A stretch of DNA of 64,000 nt from Paracoccaceae bacterium. Lineage in GTDB: Bacteria; Pseudomonadota; Alphaproteobacteria; Rhodobacterales; Rhodobacteraceae. Within the stretch, counting starts at the first letter, position 1; each line of letters begins with the position of its first letter. The stretch lies in the NCBI GenBank assembly GCA_028150825.1, contig JAOGIM010000005.1, positions 1-64,000 of the forward strand, in the 5' to 3' direction. The notes under the pieces were generated by a model. That model was not told the DNA's origin. It did no database searches and worked only from the letters and a program-made list of their open reading frames with translations. Shown here piece by piece: positions 12,987-58,054 of this stretch. Position numbers and translations under genes: made by a program.

Positions 12987-13120
12987 AATTGCCATATTTT
13001 CAAAATTTTTAAGAGAGCTCATGTCAGGATGAGCATTGGCTATTATTTAAAAGCGCCACTATTCACTTGGGAAAAGAGCGTTATTCGATTTAAGTCAAAG
13101 CCAATTAGACAAAGTCAAAT

Positions 13121-14255
13121 ATGATACAATCAATTTCTAGCCGTCTGGACTACCCTTGCTTGAAAACGCAAAGTTATCTCAATTAAGCCTCTTTGGGTTT
13201 GGTGGGTGAACCGGCTGTATCTGCCATGCATCGCTTTCTTGATGAAACAGCCAGTCATGGAAATTTGAAAATGTCGGATTCTAAGTAAGCTGTATTTTTG
13301 CAGCCTCTCCGGTCCCGCTTTGCGCGGCTCATTGATGCCCATGAAAACAATGTCGCGGTTGTAGCAAGCGCAAGTGAGATTTTGAACCAGTTACCAGCAT
13401 TGGTATCTCCTACATGGGGAAGCAAGATTATTTTGGTTGCCACGGATTTCCCCTCAATAACGCGTCCGTGTATAGCTTATTGTGAGTCGATCCCATGCAA
13501 ACTTTGTTTTGTTGAGGATGAACCTTATCAAAGCTTAACCGATCAGATAATTCAAAACCTGGACGCGCAAACCGCAGCAGTCTGTGTAAGCTTTGTTCAG
13601 TTTTCCTCTTGAAGACGGCTTGATATTTACCGATTGTGAACTGCAACTCAAGTGGTTGGGGCAAAATTGGTGGTTGATGTGACGCAGGCGGCCGGTGCTA
13701 TACCGGTCTGTGTTCAAGAGTGGGACGCAGATTTGGTGGTCTGCAGTGGATATAAGTGGCTTGGTGGGCATGGTGGTATTGCGTTTGCGAGTTTCTCAGA
13801 TGCACTATTAGAAAAACAACCACCATTTATTGGCTGCTTTGGGGGGAGGGAAGACCCCTTTGATATGGATGCAAAACAGCTTTTACTGTCCAAAACAGCA
13901 GCCAAATATACGCAGTCGACTCTGTCTTATATTTCAGTTGTTGGGCTGAATGCAGCTTTCGACGAATTGCTGAAATTTAGCGTGGAGTGGATAAATAAGC
14001 ATTCCAGTCAACTTGCAGAAGTTTTACTAGCGGGTCTTACCAATCTCGAATGGGAAGCCTTTATTGAGGCGGAGTCAGACGAATTTTCATCCCATATTAT
14101 GACACTAAAAAACTGTGCGCTATAATATACAGTCGGTTTGGCGAAAATTGATGGAAAATGGTGTTATTTGTGGAATTCGAAATGGGCGTGTCCGCGTCCC
14201 ACAGGCGCATTAAAACAATGAAGATGATATTCAGGCACTATTAATAGTACTATGA
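13121..14255 (+). pseudogene. class V aminotransferase (SufS/kynureninase-like fold), inactivated
   Basis: Starting at ATG 13121 one frame reads as a full PLP-dependent class V enzyme, including VVDVTQAAGAIPV and the Lys-bearing SGYKWLGGHGG, but four stops interrupt it: TAA 13184, TAA 13286, TGA 13610 and TGA 13637. A frameshift near 14110-14126 moves the C-terminal part (GVICGIRNGRVRV) to another frame, which carries one more stop, TAA 14211. Similarity is readable almost end to end, so the loss looks recent. The lost enzyme could have been a cysteine-desulfurase-like or selenocysteine-lyase-like protein. Its neighbours are an amidase-family gene and argE. Confidence 0.88.
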
Positions 14256-41824: not shown

Positions 41825-42244
41825 GTGATTACATTGTCCTTAAAACGTGCAAACGAATGGTTGGCTTCCGCAGATCTTAGACCAACGCGTCAGCGAGTAG
41901 CCCTTGCAGAGGTTCTTATCGGTGACGGAAAACACCGCCATGTGACTGCTGAAACTCTTTTTGAGCGGGTTAAATTGGGTGGAGAAAAAGTGTCTTTAGC
42001 AACGGTATATAACACCTTGCGGGCATTTTGTGATGCAGGCCTTACTCAGGAGGTGACTGTTGATGGTTCCAAAAGCTATTTTGACACCAATACGCATGAT
42101 CACCCGCACTTCTATTGGGAAGACACTCAGACGTTGACAGATGCTCCGGCTGACCAGTTGAAAATAACCCAGTTACCTGATACTCCAGAAGGTACGGAGA
42201 TTGCGTCTGTTGATGTTGTCATTCGTCTTCGAAAGAAGAATTAA
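41825..42244 (+). CDS. irr: Fur-family iron response regulator Irr
   Basis: A 139-residue Fur-family regulator. The helix-turn-helix is LRPTRQRVALAEVL with VSLATVYNTLRAF as the recognition part, and the His cluster THDHPHFYWED fits Irr, which senses haem and iron in Alphaproteobacteria. The CxxC zinc sites of Fur or Zur are absent. A GTG start at 41825 follows a weak site. Divergence from fabA may mean shared promoters, but I found no clear Irr box between them. Confidence 0.83.
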   Translation: MITLSLKRANEWLASADLRPTRQRVALAEVLIGDGKHRHVTAETLFERVKLGGEKVSLATVYNTLRAFCDAGLTQEVTVDGSKSYFDTNTHDHPHFYWEDTQTLTDAPADQLKITQLPDTPEGTEIASVDVVIRLRKKN

Positions 42245-42250
42245 GGTACC

Positions 42251-43234
42251 ATGCGCGCTATTGGTTATAATAAATTCGGAACTGCAGCTCAGGTTCTGAA
42301 GACAACTCAGCTGCCAGATCCGGCACCTGGGCAGGGCGATGTTGTTGTTAAACTAGCCTATTCTGGTGTCAATCCCTCTGATGTAAAATCGCGAATGGGT
42401 GGTCGCCCCGGCATCGGGAAACCAGCATTTGACTTTATTGTGCCCCATTCTGATGGCTCTGGAGTCGTGACCGACGTGGGCGCTGGGGTTGATCCTGCTA
42501 GGATAGGGCAAAGGGTCTGGATTTGGAACGGACAATGGGGCCGAGCATTGGGCACAATGGCCGAGTATATTGCTTTGCCGAGTGCTCAGGCAGTTCATTT
42601 GCCCGATGAGATCAGTCTCGAAGCTGGAGCGACCTTTGGCATCCCGGGACTAACTGCGGCTCAGTGTGTTTTGGGTGGGGATGATGTAAAAGACAAAACA
42701 GTATTGATTTCCGGTGGAGCTGGCGCCGTGGGACACTTTGCGGTTCAAATTGCAAAATGGGCCGGCGCTCAGGTTATTGCGACTGCATCGCCCAAAAATT
42801 GGGGTCACGTTCAAGCCGCAGGAGCAGATCATGTGCTTGATTATAATTCAGCTGAACTTAGCGAACAGATCAGGGCTCTCTGTCCAAATGGAGTAGATCG
42901 ATCAGTTGAGCTAGAATTTGGTTCAAACATATCGCTATTAGCAAAAATCATGCGTCCTCTGGGAACGATTGCTGCCTATGGTTCGGCGATAGACTTAAAA
43001 CCTAGCATTCCTTTTGGGCCTCTTTTATTCAAGGCGCTTAAAATCGATATCACACTTATTTATATTTTAGATGATGCGCCGCGTCATAATGCTATAAATA
43101 GTTTGCATCAGGCGTTTGCAGACGGTGCTTTAATGCCTTCGATAGACGAGATTTACGAATTTGAAGCTTGTGTCCAAGGGCATGAGAAAGTCGAACAAGC
43201 TGGGCGCCGTGGGGCAAGCCTGATTAAATTATAA
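42251..43234 (+). CDS. NADPH:quinone oxidoreductase family protein
   Basis: A 327-residue medium-chain reductase, zinc-free type. SGGAGAVGHFAVQIAKWAGA binds NADPH and SGVNPSDVKSRMG is the family N terminus. It starts six bases after irr and so is probably in its operon, which suggests iron- or oxidative-stress-linked expression. It is not AcuI-like by N-terminal sequence, although a dead dddP is nearby. The quinone or enone substrate is not known. Confidence 0.85.
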   Translation: MRAIGYNKFGTAAQVLKTTQLPDPAPGQGDVVVKLAYSGVNPSDVKSRMGGRPGIGKPAFDFIVPHSDGSGVVTDVGAGVDPARIGQRVWIWNGQWGRALGTMAEYIALPSAQAVHLPDEISLEAGATFGIPGLTAAQCVLGGDDVKDKTVLISGGAGAVGHFAVQIAKWAGAQVIATASPKNWGHVQAAGADHVLDYNSAELSEQIRALCPNGVDRSVELEFGSNISLLAKIMRPLGTIAAYGSAIDLKPSIPFGPLLFKALKIDITLIYILDDAPRHNAINSLHQAFADGALMPSIDEIYEFEACVQGHEKVEQAGRRGASLIKL

Positions 43235-43466
43235 AATTTTGTTATCGTTCCAAAACTTTTATGAACCGCAGACTGAATAAGTTTGATAATACGGGTTTTC
43301 CTTAAGCAGCGGTTGCTCTACCAATAATACATTTTAATTCAATTCTAAACATTGATGTTTTACGTGAATAAAAATCATCAAGTTTTTGATATTATTATAA
43401 ATATTTTATATTACTTACTTTTTTAACATCTTTTACGTAGACATTCCTAAATTCAGTTGTGGAATT

Positions 43467-44210
43467 TTACATCAACCTGTCAGGTGGATCTAAAACAAAT
43501 GTATGGATAGTAAAAATCACTGCATTGCTTTTCGGCAGACGCGTCAGAGTTTGTTTCTCACTTCTTATATACTTGCCTTCATTCCTCCCTAATATTTTGC
43601 GAGGATTTGAAAATGTACGCGGCTGGTGCAAGTCGGGAGCCTCATAATAGAGTTTGTTGAACCGCCAAAGTGGACGTTCCACTTTAATCCCGTTAAAAAG
43701 TCGCTGGACGCGACGTGTGATGTTCTCATCATATTCGGTAACAGGTTCGTGGATCACTGTCAGTGGTTGCATGAATTTTTCCGACAGCGACCAACTGGCT
43801 GGAAAGCACAAAACAGCGCCGGTTAGAATATGTTCGTCACCGCGTTTTTGCATGATGCAAAAATCGTTTTGTATCAATCGCCCGAGCGTAGCCATCGGGT
43901 CAGATACATCTATTTTGACGGACCGCCCGTCTGGACAAAAGACTATTTCTGCATTTTGCTCAAACCCACCAAGGTCTGGTAGAAATTCCAGCGTTTTTTC
44001 GAGTAGCTCTACGGCTGCCCTCAATGCCATATCATCTAGTGCGATAACGGCATTGCGATTATCGGTTATCAACCGTTCGCGTTCTTCCATTTGTCCAGCG
44101 TAAGCCTCATCCTTGATAAGCCATTCTTTTGGGTCCAGAGGGGCAATTCCGGGCAATACTTTGTCCTGATTTGTGTCAAAGGGGAGTTCTGTTTGAAAAA
44201 TTGCTTTCAT
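43467..44210 (-). CDS. DUF3445 / haem-dependent oxidative N-demethylase-like protein
   Basis: A 247-residue cytoplasmic protein of the DUF3445 family, which includes haem-dependent oxidative N-demethylase subunits that act on methylated amines. FPASWSLSEKFMQPLTVIHEPV and WRFNKLYYEAPDLHQ are conserved blocks of the family. The partner reductase subunits are not next to it. It is divergent from the dddP pseudogene with about 100 bases between, so both once shared a regulatory region. The function stays a family-level guess. Confidence 0.75.
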   Translation of the reverse strand: MKAIFQTELPFDTNQDKVLPGIAPLDPKEWLIKDEAYAGQMEERERLITDNRNAVIALDDMALRAAVELLEKTLEFLPDLGGFEQNAEIVFCPDGRSVKIDVSDPMATLGRLIQNDFCIMQKRGDEHILTGAVLCFPASWSLSEKFMQPLTVIHEPVTEYDENITRRVQRLFNGIKVERPLWRFNKLYYEAPDLHQPRTFSNPRKILGRNEGKYIRSEKQTLTRLPKSNAVIFTIHTFVLDPPDRLM

Positions 44211-44313
44211 GAGAGGGGAGACTTACAGAAAACGACAAAATTGCAAGTCGGAAACAAGCGCGATTGTTCTTAGAATATCTTGCTTAATGAGACGAGAATG
44301 AGGGAGTGGTGTG

Positions 44314-45659
44314 ATGACAATACACTACAGAGACGGGCGTAAAATTGCCCTTCCTTGAGAGATAAAACTGCCAACGATCAAAACCGCGTTGAAATTGGGC
44401 CGACGCGGTTAGCCTTCGATGAATGGCGGGCTTTGAACCTCAAGCTCCCAGATTTACAAATGATGCGCCGCTTTCGTTGGGACAGGCTGACCAAGTATAT
44501 AGTTAACCGTGAATATGGCGGTCTTTTGAAGTTTGACCCCCTTAATATACGCTACGCGACAGGCGGTACGACTATGCAGCTATAGAATACGGATAACCCA
44601 TTTTGCGCAGTGCTATTAGGTGCTGACGGCTATATGGTTATGTGGGACTACAAGAACTCTCCCTTTCTGTCTGAATTCAATCCGCTAGTCAGAGAACAGA
44701 GGTCAATAGCAGATTTTTTCTACTTTGATCGTAGTGATAAAGTGGATGTGGCAGCAGCTGCCTTTTCCAATGAAATGCGCGCGTTGATCCAAGAGCATGG
44801 TGCCAATGATAAGCGCCTTGCAGGGGATAAGATCATGTTGCATGCATTAAAAGCGCTCGAAGGCCTGGGCTTTGAAATTATTGAAGGTGAGGCGGTCATA
44901 GAAAAGTCTCGCTCGGTAAAAGGGCCGGATGAAATCCTTGCTATACGCTGTGCCTCTGTCGCCTGTGAGAACGCAGTTTACGAAATGGAGCGGGTTGCGC
45001 GTAAGGACATTCCCAAAGGTAATATGAGCGAAAACGATGTCTGGGCTGTGCTTCCTGCGGAAATTATAAAACGTGGTGGAGAATGGATAGAAACCCGTCT
45101 TTTAGCCCTGGGGCCACGCACTAACCCATGGTTTCAGGAATGCGGTTCACGTATCGTTCAAAACAATTAAATTTTAGCTTTTGACACAGATTTAATGGGA
45201 TCTTATGGCATCTGTATAGATATTAGCCAAACGTGGTGGATTGGGGATAAAAAGCCATGACCTGACATGGTCTTTGCCGTGAAGCAAGGCCATGAACTTA
45301 TCAAGAGAAATATGGAAATGCTGAAGCCAGGTGTCCATATGAGAGATCCTTCGCTCAACACGCATATGCTAGATGATCAATATCAAAAGGGCAAATAAGG
45401 TTGTCTTATGCACGGGGTTAGCCTTTGAGATGAATGGCCTTTGATTGCCTACCCCGACAAGATGGTTGAAGGGGCCTATGATTATGTGCTTGAGGCGGGA
45501 ATGGTGCTCTGCGTTGAAGCGCTTATCAGTCCGGAGGGCGGTGATTTCTCCATCAAACTGGAAGATCAGGTTTTAATAACTCCGACCGGTTACGAAAATC
45601 TTAGTAACTGCTCATTTGACGATATCTTGATGAGACAGTCTAAAGGGATTTATCGTTGA
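44314..45659 (+). pseudogene. dddP: dddP, DMSP lyase (M24 family), inactivated
   Basis: From ATG 44314 (YRDGRKIA) one frameshift near 44350 leads into a frame that reads as DddP to the end: FDPLNIRYAT, GYMVMWDYKNSPFLS, GPRTNPWFQECG, then AGMVLCVEALIS and SIKLEDQVLIT. Five stops break it: TAG 44583 (Trp position), TAA 45168, TGA 45258, TAA 45396 and TGA 45426. Metal-ligand motifs survive in the text (FDTD, DIS, MHGV, VEA, LEDQ). DddP cleaves dimethylsulfoniopropionate to dimethyl sulfide and acrylate. The gene cannot yield that protein here. High readability implies recent loss. Confidence 0.92.
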
Positions 45660-46285
45660 AAGGTAGGTGCGTATCTGAGGATTCCTATTGCTAGTACTTT
45701 AGAAAATGTAACCCACTCAACGAGGTTTGTTCGTACGTCAAAGTAAAATAATTTTTATTACTTTTGAGTTTAAACTTTCTGTAAAAGTTTTATTTTCTGA
45801 ACAAGATACAACCGTGGGCCCCGATACTTTGCAAATATTTCAGATTTTTATGAATCAGAATGTTTCCTATGGCTTTTGTTGAATTCCTGGATGCATAGAT
45901 GTTGGTTTGAGACCGAACCTGAATTCAAGTGTCCTATAAGTTGTAACGGATGAAAAAACCATAAGTCCAACAATTTTATACTATCGTTTGGTAACTAACG
46001 ACGGTGTGAATTTACTATTTCTCTTAGATGATCAACGATTCACCCTCATCAATTTTCACTATAGTAAAAATGCTTAAAAGCGATGTCGGTTTAAAGATGG
46101 TTCCCTATTTTTTGCTTGATTTGTCATCTTTGACCAATGTTGGTTAGTATGTATCATTCTGTAAGTGCGTGAACAATTTTAGTAAGACCCGAAGTTGTCC
46201 ATTTCGTCCCGCGCTTTTGGTTGTACCTTCTGTGAGGCGCGCTTATAAGGAGTTCGATTTCTAAATAATATGAGGTTGTCCTCCA
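45660..46285. other. intergenic region before purB
   Basis: 626 bases of AT-rich DNA between dead dddP and purB. No coding sequence or terminator is evident. At its end GAGG (46272-46275) pairs with CCTC (46280-46283) around TTGT, so the purB ribosome site could be masked in a small hairpin. Confidence 0.4.
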
Positions 46286-47587
46286 ATGATTACACGTTAT
46301 TCCCGTCCCGACATTGTTAAAATCTGGTCACCTGAGACAAAATTCCGTATCTGGTACGAGATTGAGGCTCATGCCTGTGACGCGATGGCTGAGATAGGTG
46401 TCATTCCAGAGGAAAACGCAAAAGCGGTTTGGAAAGTAAAAGATGTTGAGTTTGATGTGGCTCGAATTGATGAGATTGAAGCTGTCACTAAGCATGATGT
46501 AATAGCGTTTTTGACCCATCTTGCAGAAATTGTTGGATCAGACGAAGCGCGATTCATTCATCAGGGCATGACGAGCTCTGATGTGTTGGATACTTGTTTT
46601 AATGTCCAGCTAGTCAAGGCGGCTGATATTTTGATTGCCGATATGGAGGCGCTTTTGGCGGCTTTAAAACGACGCGCCTTTGAGCATAAATATACTGTGC
46701 GTATTGGACGCAGTCATGGCATACATGCTGAGCCGACCACAATGGGGCTGACGTTCACACGTTTTTACGCAGAGATGGATCGCAATCGCGAACGCCTTAT
46801 CGCGGCTCGGGCAGAAATTGCGACGGGTGCAATTTCTGGTGCGGTGGGAACATTTGCAAACATTGATCCACATGTTGAAGATTATGTGTGTCAAAAACTT
46901 GGCCTAGAGCCAGAGCCAATCAGCACTCAAGTTATTCCGCGAGACCGTCATGCGGCATTTTTTGCTGTGCTCGGTGTTGTGGCCAGCAGCATCGAAAACG
47001 TAGCAACAGAAATCCGCCATATGCAGCGCACCGAAGTGCTTGAAGCAGAGGAATTTTTCTCAAAGGGGCAAAAAGGTAGCTCGGCTATGCCCCACAAGCG
47101 CAACCCTGTTTTAACAGAAAATCTAACTGGATTGGCGCGTCTGGTACGTGCAGCTGTCATTCCAGCCCTGGAAAATGTGGTGCAGTGGCACGAACGAGAT
47201 ATCTCGCATAGTTCTGTAGAAAGGAACATTGGCCCAGACGCTACGGTCACGCTGGATTTCGCTTTATCACGGTTAACTCAAGTCATTGATAAACTGGTTG
47301 TTTACCCTGAAAATATGCTAAAAAATATGAACAAATTCCGTGGTCTTGTAATGAGCCAAAGAGTTCTTTTGGCGTTGACACAGGCGGGCGTCAGTCGAGA
47401 CGATTCCTACCGTCTAGTGCAGAGAAACGCGATGAAGGTTTGGGAGGAAGGCAAAGATTTTAAGACTGAGCTTTTGGCTGATAAAGAAGTAATGCAGGCT
47501 CTCAGCGAGGAGGAAGTGCGTGAAAAATTTGATATCAGCTATCATACGAAGCATGTGGATACCATTTTTAAGCGGGTTTTTAAGTAG
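46286..47587 (+). CDS. purB: adenylosuccinate lyase
   Basis: A 433-residue fumarase/aspartase-superfamily enzyme that acts twice in purine synthesis, releasing fumarate from SAICAR and from adenylosuccinate. Visible are HQGMTSSDVLDT, GRSHGIHAEPT with the catalytic His, and the signature GSSAMPHKRNPVLTEN. Length is standard. The GAGG ribosome site ten bases upstream can fold with CCTC. It is transcribed alone; the dead fliG follows. Confidence 0.95.
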   Translation: MITRYSRPDIVKIWSPETKFRIWYEIEAHACDAMAEIGVIPEENAKAVWKVKDVEFDVARIDEIEAVTKHDVIAFLTHLAEIVGSDEARFIHQGMTSSDVLDTCFNVQLVKAADILIADMEALLAALKRRAFEHKYTVRIGRSHGIHAEPTTMGLTFTRFYAEMDRNRERLIAARAEIATGAISGAVGTFANIDPHVEDYVCQKLGLEPEPISTQVIPRDRHAAFFAVLGVVASSIENVATEIRHMQRTEVLEAEEFFSKGQKGSSAMPHKRNPVLTENLTGLARLVRAAVIPALENVVQWHERDISHSSVERNIGPDATVTLDFALSRLTQVIDKLVVYPENMLKNMNKFRGLVMSQRVLLALTQAGVSRDDSYRLVQRNAMKVWEEGKDFKTELLADKEVMQALSEEEVREKFDISYHTKHVDTIFKRVFK

Positions 47588-47722
47588 AACACCCTTGAAA
47601 AAGGGTCAAACCCATTATCAGTTTGAGGTGTTTGTAGTTTTTATTTGTCGAACAAAGACAGAGCCTTCAAAACTATGAGCAAGCGGTTGATTCGCCAAAC
47701 ATTAAGCACGAAATCTCTGGTC

Positions 47723-48731
47723 ATGAACTATCAATAGTAGTTTTTTAGACCGCGCAGTAGGAGAGGCTGTAATCATTGTGAGTTTATTAATTTGGCATAG
47801 GACGGATGGTTTACTGTCCAACCTTTCAGCTAAGCTGTAAAGCGAAATTACATAAAGTATCGTTCAATTACGGCGCGTTAATCCAGAAACCATTTTGAGT
47901 GTGGTCAGAGAGTTTGCCGGAGAGCCCGGCTCAGTTGGTTTAAGTCTTAGTGATGACCTTGTAGAGGCCTTTGGGTTTTGGAATGCAAAATTGCTAAACA
48001 AACTGCAAAACGAGGCTGGAGTTTTCCAGTTTGCAGATCTGTGTGGCCGACTAAAGCGGATGAGTGTTGAGGAACTTGGCAAAATTTTTGCGAATGTAAA
48101 CATGGAAATTGCTACTGTTAAATTGTCCAAATTAGACACAGGTAAAGCAGTAAATATTTTTGGGTCCCTTCCAGACGATCACGTTTGTAAAATAAGCCAT
48201 ATAATTTGGATTGGCAAAAATCTGAAATCTGATGCTATGGATCGGATTGGAAAGAGCCTTGTAGCTAAAATCGATAATCGTCTAGAGCGTGCATTTTATA
48301 AAACCCTTGCAGATTATATCGCTGTTATTTTAACTTTGGGATCTCACAAAGTCCGTCAGGAAGTGATAACGTGACTTGAAATAACGGACCTGAATTTGCT
48401 GAGCTGGTGAAGAATGCCATGTTTATATATAGACATAATTTGGGGAGTTTTTTTAAAAAGACATGGCCAAAGCGATAAGATCAGTATCTCAACTTGAGTT
48501 TATTACAGCACTTGGATTTGCGCGTCATCGCGGTGACATTAAAGTTAAAGACCGTATTCTTAGTGGCTTATAAAAGTGGTTGGCTGAAATTATAGAGAAA
48601 GAAAAGTTTCTTTCTAGTCGCACCAGAAATCGTGACGGCCAGTGGTAAATTTACAAAATTATTACAAAAAATCAAGATGGCATTACGACGGGCCTATTCA
48701 ATTGTAGAGATCCTTTGGAAGTTATGCACTA
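47723..48731 (+). pseudogene. fliG: fliG, flagellar motor switch protein, inactivated
   Basis: The longest open piece (about 47856-48371) reads as Rhodobacterales-type FliG: TILSVVREFAGE, IATVKLSKLDTGKAVNIF and SDAMDRIGKSLVAKIDNR. Upstream in the same frame, GEAVIIVSLLI and DGLLSNLSAKL continue the N terminus past TAA 47838 and TAA 47853. After TGA 48372 the frame shifts (EFAELVKNAMF) and shifts again to SQLEFITALGFARHRGD and KVKDRILSGL, ending in TAA 48571 and TAA 48646. It is thus a full-length gene with at least five stops and two frameshifts. No other flagellar gene is near. Confidence 0.83.
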
Positions 48732-48844
48732 ACGTGGTGGCTATTATATTTCTTTAGTGAACTTTTCGAACATTAGATCAAACACTTGTTCTCAGATAGT
48801 CTTTGGCTGTACTTGTTACACCGAGATTATATTTCCGAGGTTCT

Positions 48845-49762
48845 ATGGCTAAAACCCAAAAACTCGAGGGTAGCACAGCGCAAAAGGTAACGGATCTCCT
48901 TCTGCGTGGATTAATCAATCTAGCGCTCGCTCTGCCGCTTAGAATGCGATTGTGGTTCATGGGCATGCTGTTGCGTCGCGTGGTCTCACCTTTGGCTGGA
49001 TATAGGTCCCGGGCGATTGCCAATCTGGATTATATTTATCCTGACTTGGAAATGTCGAGAAAACGTCAAATTGCGGATGCTGTTGCAGATAATGCGGGGC
49101 GGACCCTTATCGAAAACTATGATGTTTTAGGTCTTAAAGATCGTATGCGCGATGCTGACGTTGAAGGGAAGGGCTTCGAAGCGGTTAAAGAGGCGCATGC
49201 ATCTGGCAGGCCAGTAATTTTCGTAACCGGCCATTTTGGCAACTTTGAAGCACCCAGAGCCGCGCTTGTTGCGCGGGGTTTTGAAGTTGGCGGTCTTTAC
49301 CGTCCAATGTCAAACCCCTTTTTTAATGCCCATTATGCAAAGAATATGCATTCTCTTTCTGGCCCGGTCTTTGAGCAAGGGAGGCGTGGTACGATGGGGC
49401 TTTTCCGCCATATCAAAAGTGGTGGTATGGGTGTTCTGCTCTTTGATATTTATGATAGCAGTGGAGCGCCAATGGATTTTTTAGGCCAGCCAGCGCCAAC
49501 AATGACATCAGCCGCAGACATAGCGCTTAAGACAGGTGCTTTGCTCGTTCCGTTTTTTGGTGTGCGCAAAGCAGATGGGCGCAGTTTTGAGTTGATTTTT
49601 GAGAATCCTATTCCCCATAGTGATGCGTTGACAATGACTAAGGACATGACACAGCGGCTCGAGGTACAAGTCGCAAGAAACCCTGAACAATGGTTTTGGA
49701 TCCATCGGCGATGGAAACCTGCCCGTCAGCGGACTATGGCAGAAGCCAAAATAACTTCCTGA
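48845..49762 (+). CDS. HtrB/MsbB-like lysophospholipid/lipid A acyltransferase
   Basis: A 305-residue inner-membrane-associated acyltransferase of the lipid A late-acyltransferase superfamily. A hydrophobic N-terminal segment (about 17-45) is followed by the catalytic HX4E motif GHFGNFEAP and later by PFFGVRKADGRSF and NPEQWFWIHRRWK, hallmarks of LpxL-type enzymes. GAGG at 48836-48839 sets the ATG. It adds a fatty acid to lipid A or a related lipid. It is alone, after the dead fliG. Confidence 0.88.
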   Translation: MAKTQKLEGSTAQKVTDLLLRGLINLALALPLRMRLWFMGMLLRRVVSPLAGYRSRAIANLDYIYPDLEMSRKRQIADAVADNAGRTLIENYDVLGLKDRMRDADVEGKGFEAVKEAHASGRPVIFVTGHFGNFEAPRAALVARGFEVGGLYRPMSNPFFNAHYAKNMHSLSGPVFEQGRRGTMGLFRHIKSGGMGVLLFDIYDSSGAPMDFLGQPAPTMTSAADIALKTGALLVPFFGVRKADGRSFELIFENPIPHSDALTMTKDMTQRLEVQVARNPEQWFWIHRRWKPARQRTMAEAKITS

Positions 49763-56998: not shown

Positions 56999-58054
56999 AA
57001 TGCACAAGCCCAGGCCCTTACCTTTATCCATTACTAATCTTTTTAGCGTAATTGTTCATTATCTTGTGACTAAAACCATTGCTCCAGTTCAATGAACGCA
57101 AGATCGAGTCATTGGTTGGAATGCCAGGGGAATTGTGAATTGTTCTAATAAAAGCAATGAATATTATATTTTCAAACTGGACTAAGCCGTGGAACCCTGG
57201 ATGTTAGAACCGAAATGATGGCAGCACTCAGATTGGTGTGTCAGGGACAGGCATAGGCATAGGCATACGCATGAGTTTTGTATTGTTGACCATCAAAAGA
57301 GAAATTTTTTAGCAGCTCCAACCCAGCGTTAGCGTTAAATAGTCCAACACGATTAATTTTTTGCTTTTTTGTGGGAATAAATTCTTAAAATTGGCATCAT
57401 AGCCCGCCAAAAAACGTGTTGTTGATCTTTGAATTTGTTATTAATTACATCCCATCATGCACGAGAATAGTAGCTATATTTATCAATTTGAGAATCTGTT
57501 GGAGATACCTATCTGGAGCTCTAGCGAAATTTTTAGCATAAACATTTACAACAAAGGAGAGCATTATATCGCAGCGCTCTTGGGTGTGAAGAGTAAATCA
57601 TCCTTGAACATTGTGGGCTTTGCAAAACGAACTAAAAATATTAGCCATTCAAGCAAAAGATGGGTGAATTGCAGTTATTTCGTTTTCCTCGTCAACGCTA
57701 TTGTGTGAATGTCCTTGGAAAGTCAACCTTCTCAGTTGTTGTTCCAGTCTTTCAATACCTTTGAAATTTGCATGCGAAGAAGCCCAAAACTAATAACGGC
57801 TTGAAACCCGCAATTCAGATAATGTTCATAAATTGAAACAAGTTCGGTTTGATCCTCTAAAAAGATCAGTTTAATGGGGCCTTTTATCTGAGTTCTAAGC
57901 GTAGTCTTCCAAAAGCCTTTTAAGAGCGATATATAATAATCGTAAAACTAACACGTTTTGATCTTTAATTAACAAAATAACTAGCAAGACGTTGCAAGTC
58001 AGCAGTTATCTGGTGTAACAAACTATTTAATTATTAACTCTGGAAAGCCAAGTT
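56999..58054. other. 1-kb region without supported genes
   Basis: AT-rich DNA with a short tandem repeat (57250-57268). An 83-codon frame at 57457-57708 starts with ATG and has no family likeness or clear ribosome site; it may be a remnant. The bases before miaB probably hold its promoter. Confidence 0.4.
57250..57268. repeat. short GGCATA tandem repeat
   Basis: Three consecutive GGCATA units followed by a CGCATG variant. There is no gene across it; it is likely slippage-derived. Confidence 0.6.

Follow-up and report, generated by a model that had tools for sequence, protein, structure and literature searches.

The 64,000-nucleotide stretch of Paracoccaceae DNA analysed here (the window) carries a nearly full-length relic of dddP, a DMSP lyase gene of M24-like type, whose reading frame is interrupted by five in-frame stop codons and a frameshift (Table 1). 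This gene is a real, recent pseudogene, and the mechanism of its loss holds nothing new. We hold with high confidence that dddP was vertically inherited, was inactivated in place after the window lineage split from its sequenced relatives, and is now drifting.

Identity of the relic and nature of the damage

Translated with X at each stop, the relic scores 728 bits against the NCBIfam model for DMSP lyase DddP (NF043017, cut-off 600), and it matches the PDB entries 4rzy, 4rzz, 4s00, 4s01 and 4b28 with E values of 2e-195 to 1e-203. The structure search labels these entries as M24 peptidases; we take all five to be DddP enzymes, the first four presumably from Ruegeria lacuscaerulensis and 4b28 presumably the Roseobacter denitrificans protein, which we take to be the enzyme of PMC4108388. 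The intact DddP of a member of the same genus (G001) matches the relic at 75% over residues 19-444 (tblastn), and a chance match is ruled out by the profile and structure scores. The initial annotation, made from the letters alone, had proposed that the full DddP protein could be read save for one frameshift and five stops; this observation is confirmed, with the stops lying exactly where it had placed them, and its interpretation as a dddP that lost its frame recently is supported.

A functional DddP is expected to occupy a single ORF of about 445 codons, an arrangement that the five stops and the 13-nt deletion have destroyed. Like the known DddP enzymes named above, the relic shows homology over nearly the whole length and still encodes six metal ligands and Asp377; unlike them, it carries the stops and the deletion and has lost the codons for Trp95 and Tyr366. 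Compared with the corresponding codons of a second genus member (G003), each stop differs by a single base (TGG-TAG, GAA-TAA, CGA-TGA, TAC-TAA and TGC-TGA), and the alignments with G001 and G003 bear out the earlier proposal that each arose by a one-base change of a conserved Trp, Glu, Arg, Tyr or Cys.

The metal-ligand segments had likewise been said to survive, and the ligands D295, D297, D307, H371, E406 and E421, together with D377, are indeed unchanged. The ligand list, the numbering and the residue roles follow the accessible part of PMC4108388, where D377 is the favoured base and Y366 the other candidate. The active-site pair is thus incomplete in the relic, Asp377 being kept and Tyr366 replaced by TAA. 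In addition, 35 positions that are identical across the genus members G001, G003, G004 and G006 carry different residues in the window dddP.

Table 1. Features of the dddP locus in the window, with the basis for each assignment
Feature	Position	Strand	Basis or remark
irr, iron response regulator	41825..42244	+	intact flank; NF045678 202 bits, cut-off 150
medium-chain oxidoreductase	42251..43234	+	intact flank; NF051456 62 bits vs cut-off 440, outside AcuI by that NCBIfam threshold
HODM alpha-subunit-like protein	43467..44210	-	intact flank, divergent to dddP; PF11927 158 bits
dddP relic (DMSP lyase, M24-like)	44314..45659	+	ancestral ATG start to final TGA
13-nt deletion shifting the frame	44355..44356	+	alignment with G003 and G005; lies after 44355 relative to both, placement approximate and alignment-dependent
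TAG for Trp95	44583..44585	+	alignment with intact G001, codon comparison with G003
TAA for Glu290	45168..45170	+	alignment with intact G001, codon comparison with G003
TGA for Arg320	45258..45260	+	alignment with intact G001, codon comparison with G003
TAA for Tyr366	45396..45398	+	alignment with G001 and G003; proposed active-site residue in the accessible part of PMC4108388
TGA for Cys376	45426..45428	+	alignment with intact G001, codon comparison with G003
purB, adenylosuccinate lyase	46286..47587	+	intact flank; TIGR00928 517 bits

Gene order at the dddP locus

The ancestral gene order, fabI, fabB, fabA, irr, oxidoreductase, HODM-like, dddP and purB, is common to the window, G001, G004, G005 and G006, and the 11-kb contig of G003, which ends before purB, shows the same order over its length. 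Since this order is shared between the window and its genus mates, dddP was inherited at this locus and decayed in place. The window copy is disabled whereas the orthologues in G001, G004 and G006 are open in the same gene order, as in a unitary pseudogene, and the seven flanking genes that were aligned to G001 contain no stops in the window. Contig C3 of G005 is collinear with the window from 3 to 63995, with window genes at 6.3-8.3 kb and 54.2-55.8 kb finding no match on it. An Rfam search of 43200-48900 returned no RNA element at gathering scores.

Other remnants lie in the same stretch. Between purB and an acyltransferase gene is a decayed fliG-like paralogue (47766-48398), for which G001 has a 365-codon form at the same place; a link to loss of motility was dropped, as an open fliG and rod-family genes are found elsewhere in the window genome. 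A class-V aminotransferase relic (13118-14252, PF00266) has stops in two frames, four in one and three in the other, and its homologue in G005 is open over 380 codons. A possible gene remnant at 57073-57639 resembles a glycosyltransferase weakly, scoring under the Pfam cut-off, and shows 32% identity to an open G001 counterpart, with eight stops in the window.

Damage to dddP within the genus

The genus is represented in the collection by seven genomes (the window genome, G000, and G001-G006), in which dddP is open in three (G001, G004 and G006), a contig-edge fragment in one (G002, residues 352-445) and damaged in three. In the case of G003, the gene lies at the same locus in the same clade and also has a broken frame, but differs from the window copy in that its sole lesion is a 1-nt deletion near codon 431, which leaves 430 codons open and replaces the last ~15 residues. 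The G005 relic resembles that of the window in its position and heavy decay, and differs from it in the lesions themselves, with stops at A45, Y85, R310, K365 and Y395 and gaps of ~237 and ~74 alignment columns. Moreover, D295 is changed in G005, and H371 and D377 fall within the deleted part, whereas all three residues are kept in the window. Not one stop or deletion is common to the three damaged genes.

The three genomes form a clade with a support of 100, in the arrangement (G003,(G005,window)); the grouping of G005 with the window is only moderately supported (75-76 on six neighbouring genes, 72-90 on dddP itself). A protein search at E 0.001 found no second dddP in the window genome as assembled (2.34 Mb in 110 contigs, 62.7% complete), further matches to the DddP family model being weak (24 and 31 bits). 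In G005, which is 96% complete, only pieces of its own relic were matched. On contigs C33 and C56 of G005, several GCV_T-domain matches contain in-frame stops, suggestive of further pseudogenes in that genome.

Selection on dddP

Selection was estimated with a joint codon model (custom script) in which dddP and six neighbouring genes had their branch times in common; purB was omitted because the G003 contig stops short of it, with a match to only 41 of its 435 codons. In this model the stem is saturated for synonymous change. The joint fit took the place of single-gene fits for dddP, in which the G003 omega was unidentifiable and its values of 29 to 233 meaningless. For the window, the single-gene omega was 0.324, and fixing it at 1 cost a 2dlnL of only 9.0.

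In the joint model, the background dddP omega was 0.033, against 0.092 for the inner branch, 0.133 for G003, 0.284 for the window and 0.368 for G005; for the neighbouring genes, the window, G005, G003 and inner branches had values of 0.092, 0.081, 0.095 and 0.099, respectively. Setting the window branch equal to the background cost a 2dlnL of 76.6, to 1 a 2dlnL of 50.1, and to its neighbours a 2dlnL of 26.1; for G005 the costs were 172.2, 49.8 and 76.0, respectively. Purifying selection on the window branch is therefore supported as relaxed in part only, with an omega between constrained and neutral. The initial annotation had called the gene recently killed and had named a dN/dS comparison with intact relatives as a check. 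The window value, raised over both the background and the neighbours on its own branch, agrees with that description, as does damage that is private to the window genome among those compared.

An omega of 0.284 is consistent with constraint over most of the branch followed by neutral evolution towards its end. Taking an omega of 0.09 before the loss and 1 after it, the gene would have been neutral for about one-fifth of the branch, or ~65 mutations. In simulations, 60 mutations gave a mean of 2.05 stops (95% range 0-5) and 80 mutations a mean of 2.81 (0-6), so that the five stops observed are at the upper end of expectation, yet compatible with it. A retained function for the 186-aa piece that is open at 44610-45170 is unsupported, as selection is relaxed there too (omega 0.293 vs 0.034, 2dlnL 22.6, with 0.527 for the rest of dddP, in single-gene fits).

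For G003, the dddP omega differs from the background (2dlnL 14.9), and neither from the neighbours (1.5) nor from 1 (2.4). Given that its omega matches that of its neighbours, the C-terminally shortened G003 protein may still work, in which case only two of the three clade members would have lost the function.

Separate or shared loss of dddP

The different lesions in G003 and G005 suggest that constraint on dddP weakened in this clade, and the absence of any lesion common to its members points to separate knock-outs as most likely. It is rather unlikely that a single ancestral loss, either before the whole clade diverged or before G005 and the window did, silenced dddP through a promoter or regulator, with the coding lesions following later. 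Damage in all three clade members would be expected from such an event, and the omega of the inner branch is uninformative, an omega of 1 costing a 2dlnL of only 0.39; with that branch so poorly determined, an earlier shared loss, such as that of a promoter, is possible for G005 and the window. However, G003 retains 430 open codons with an omega equal to that of its neighbours within error, which indicates selection until recently and argues against a three-way ancestral loss, though less against one confined to G005 and the window.

In the window lineage, five nonsense codons and the 13-nt deletion disable the gene. The window genome would then make no DddP enzyme and, lacking it, the acrylate-and-DMS route by way of DddP would be closed, with DMSP mainly demethylated. 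The broader proposal, that a clade of marine-type Rhodobacteraceae is dropping DddP cleavage by way of two or three independent knock-outs, with dmdA still under strong selection, is put forward tentatively, at somewhat short of even chances.

Remaining DMSP genes

A DmdA match above the NCBIfam cut-off and free of internal stops is present in each of the seven genomes. The dmdA gene had been proposed as one to look for beside the relic, and two open copies were found in the window genome, one of them adjoining a crotonyl-CoA carboxylase/reductase gene (552.6 bits). On the window branch the two copies have omegas of 0.071 and 0.093 (single-gene fits, given here as estimates outside any formal test). 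With dmdA present twice and open, the earlier suggestion that the loss bears on the switch between cleavage and demethylation is reasonable. The search for acuI gave the opposite outcome: no AcuI match exceeded the cut-off in the window genome assembly (62.7% complete) or in any of the other six genomes, among them the 96% complete G005, and only a G001 protein (430 of 440 bits) and a G002 fragment came near it. DddD is a double-length protein, and CoA-transferase matches at E 1e-30 in the seven genomes as assembled include no frame longer than 460 codons, which gives no sign of DddD in the assembled sequence, that of G005 included. Another DMSP lyase may still lie in the part of the window genome that the assembly lacks. 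Contig C41 of G005 has two CoA-transferase genes side by side.

Cupins of the DMSP_lyase family (PF16867) score above the cut-off in six of the seven genomes. One type, of 194 aa, is open in exactly the three genomes with damaged dddP and was not found in the other four, which are incomplete (G004, for instance, at 55%). This distribution could mean that a DddQ-like cupin took over DMSP cleavage and made dddP dispensable. The window genome copy (contig C67, L162:7844-8425) scores 85.3 bits against the Pfam model (cut-off 27), the protein resembles DddQ structures (4la2, E 3.8e-15), its omega is ~0.25, and the cupin motif residues are conserved in alignments. Against a takeover, none of the NCBIfam families matches the protein, and genomes with an open dddP also hold other PF16867 cupins. 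The genes around it (L162:684-12937) are glutamine-synthetase-like, aldehyde dehydrogenase, iron alcohol dehydrogenase and aminotransferase genes, the first three of these names being broad, as all score below curated cut-offs; the flanking transporter, judged by eye from the ORFs, is ABC-type in the window genome and TRAP-like in G003. These neighbours are not genes of acrylate or DMSP use, and their context suggests amine or amino-acid catabolism, for which reason the 194-aa cupin is not called a DMSP lyase here. We regard such a takeover as unlikely.

Decay of dddP in the family

In a family sample of 394 genomes, a DddP-type match at E 1e-40 was found in 225, and above the cut-off in 217. 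The matches listed are the strongest, and the search was repeated for 73 weaker genomes (35 and 38). In-frame stops within matches of more than 200 bits were found only in G000, G003 and G005 among the matches listed, and none was found in a DddP match above the cut-off among the family matches listed; G000 and G005 are among the 225 and carry stops, and a weak secondary match in G101 carries one TAG. Two further genomes have a damaged dddP, with a large internal deletion in one (G130:C39:63926-64512, L238) and a split over two frames with ~30 residues missing in the other (G213:C148:18491-19707, L239). The match in G152 ends at a contig end.

Among 80 named dddP loci, gathered by peptide patterns from the window query and so biased towards its relatives, 75 are intact. 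The five others are two loci cut by contig ends, that of G003, and two with broken frames. Of the latter, the dddP of the Planktomarina MAG FRAM18_bin059 (L099, 10004-11277) has two apparent stops and a frame change, and that of Roseobacter sp. CCS2 (L100, 9941-11274) one apparent frame change, either of which may be decay or sequencing error. These two and the G130 and G213 genes resemble the window copy in being dddP in pieces at one place, and differ in belonging to other genera. Within a mainly open-access set of papers on DMSP lyases, the titles and abstracts listed report no dddP pseudogene, and neither do passages of PMC8547437, PMC5896138, PMC7174347, PMC4334477, PMC8004995, PMC11747546 and PMC4304780.

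For the window gene itself, a sequencing or assembly error that conceals an intact dddP in the living cell is very improbable. The relic is known from a single assembly, incomplete and in many contigs, but stops of all three types, the deletion and the 35 changes at conserved positions are concentrated in one gene, none of the seven flanking genes that were aligned contains a stop, and the separately assembled G005 is broken differently at the same locus. Readthrough or recoding of the stops, with the protein still made, is scarcely credible. The remaining sequence does still read as DddP, but it combines a frameshift with stop codons of three different types, selection is relaxed in each of the two parts examined, and the neighbours are ordinary closed frames under table 11.

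Implications

Metagenomic work already counts dddP by profile searches (as in the accessible part of PMC8004995), and the relic, when read through, scores above the DddP cut-off, so that counts by homology could overstate the potential for DMS production. The accessible part of PMC4304780 describes a survey in which reads are translated and those carrying nonsense mutations are set apart; as far as that part goes, a survey of this type would miss dddP decay of the present kind.

What raises the case above the routine is that dddP, almost always open elsewhere, is damaged in three different ways in three related genomes, while dmdA is kept. A clade that breaks dddP but keeps dmdA open at low omega suggests that selection can separate cleavage from demethylation. 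If true, the clade would be a natural experiment in which cleavage, unlike demethylation, is either dispensable or disfavoured, one gene could be compared at open, nearly open and wrecked stages, and pairs of genomes would be available for asking why cleavage is lost.
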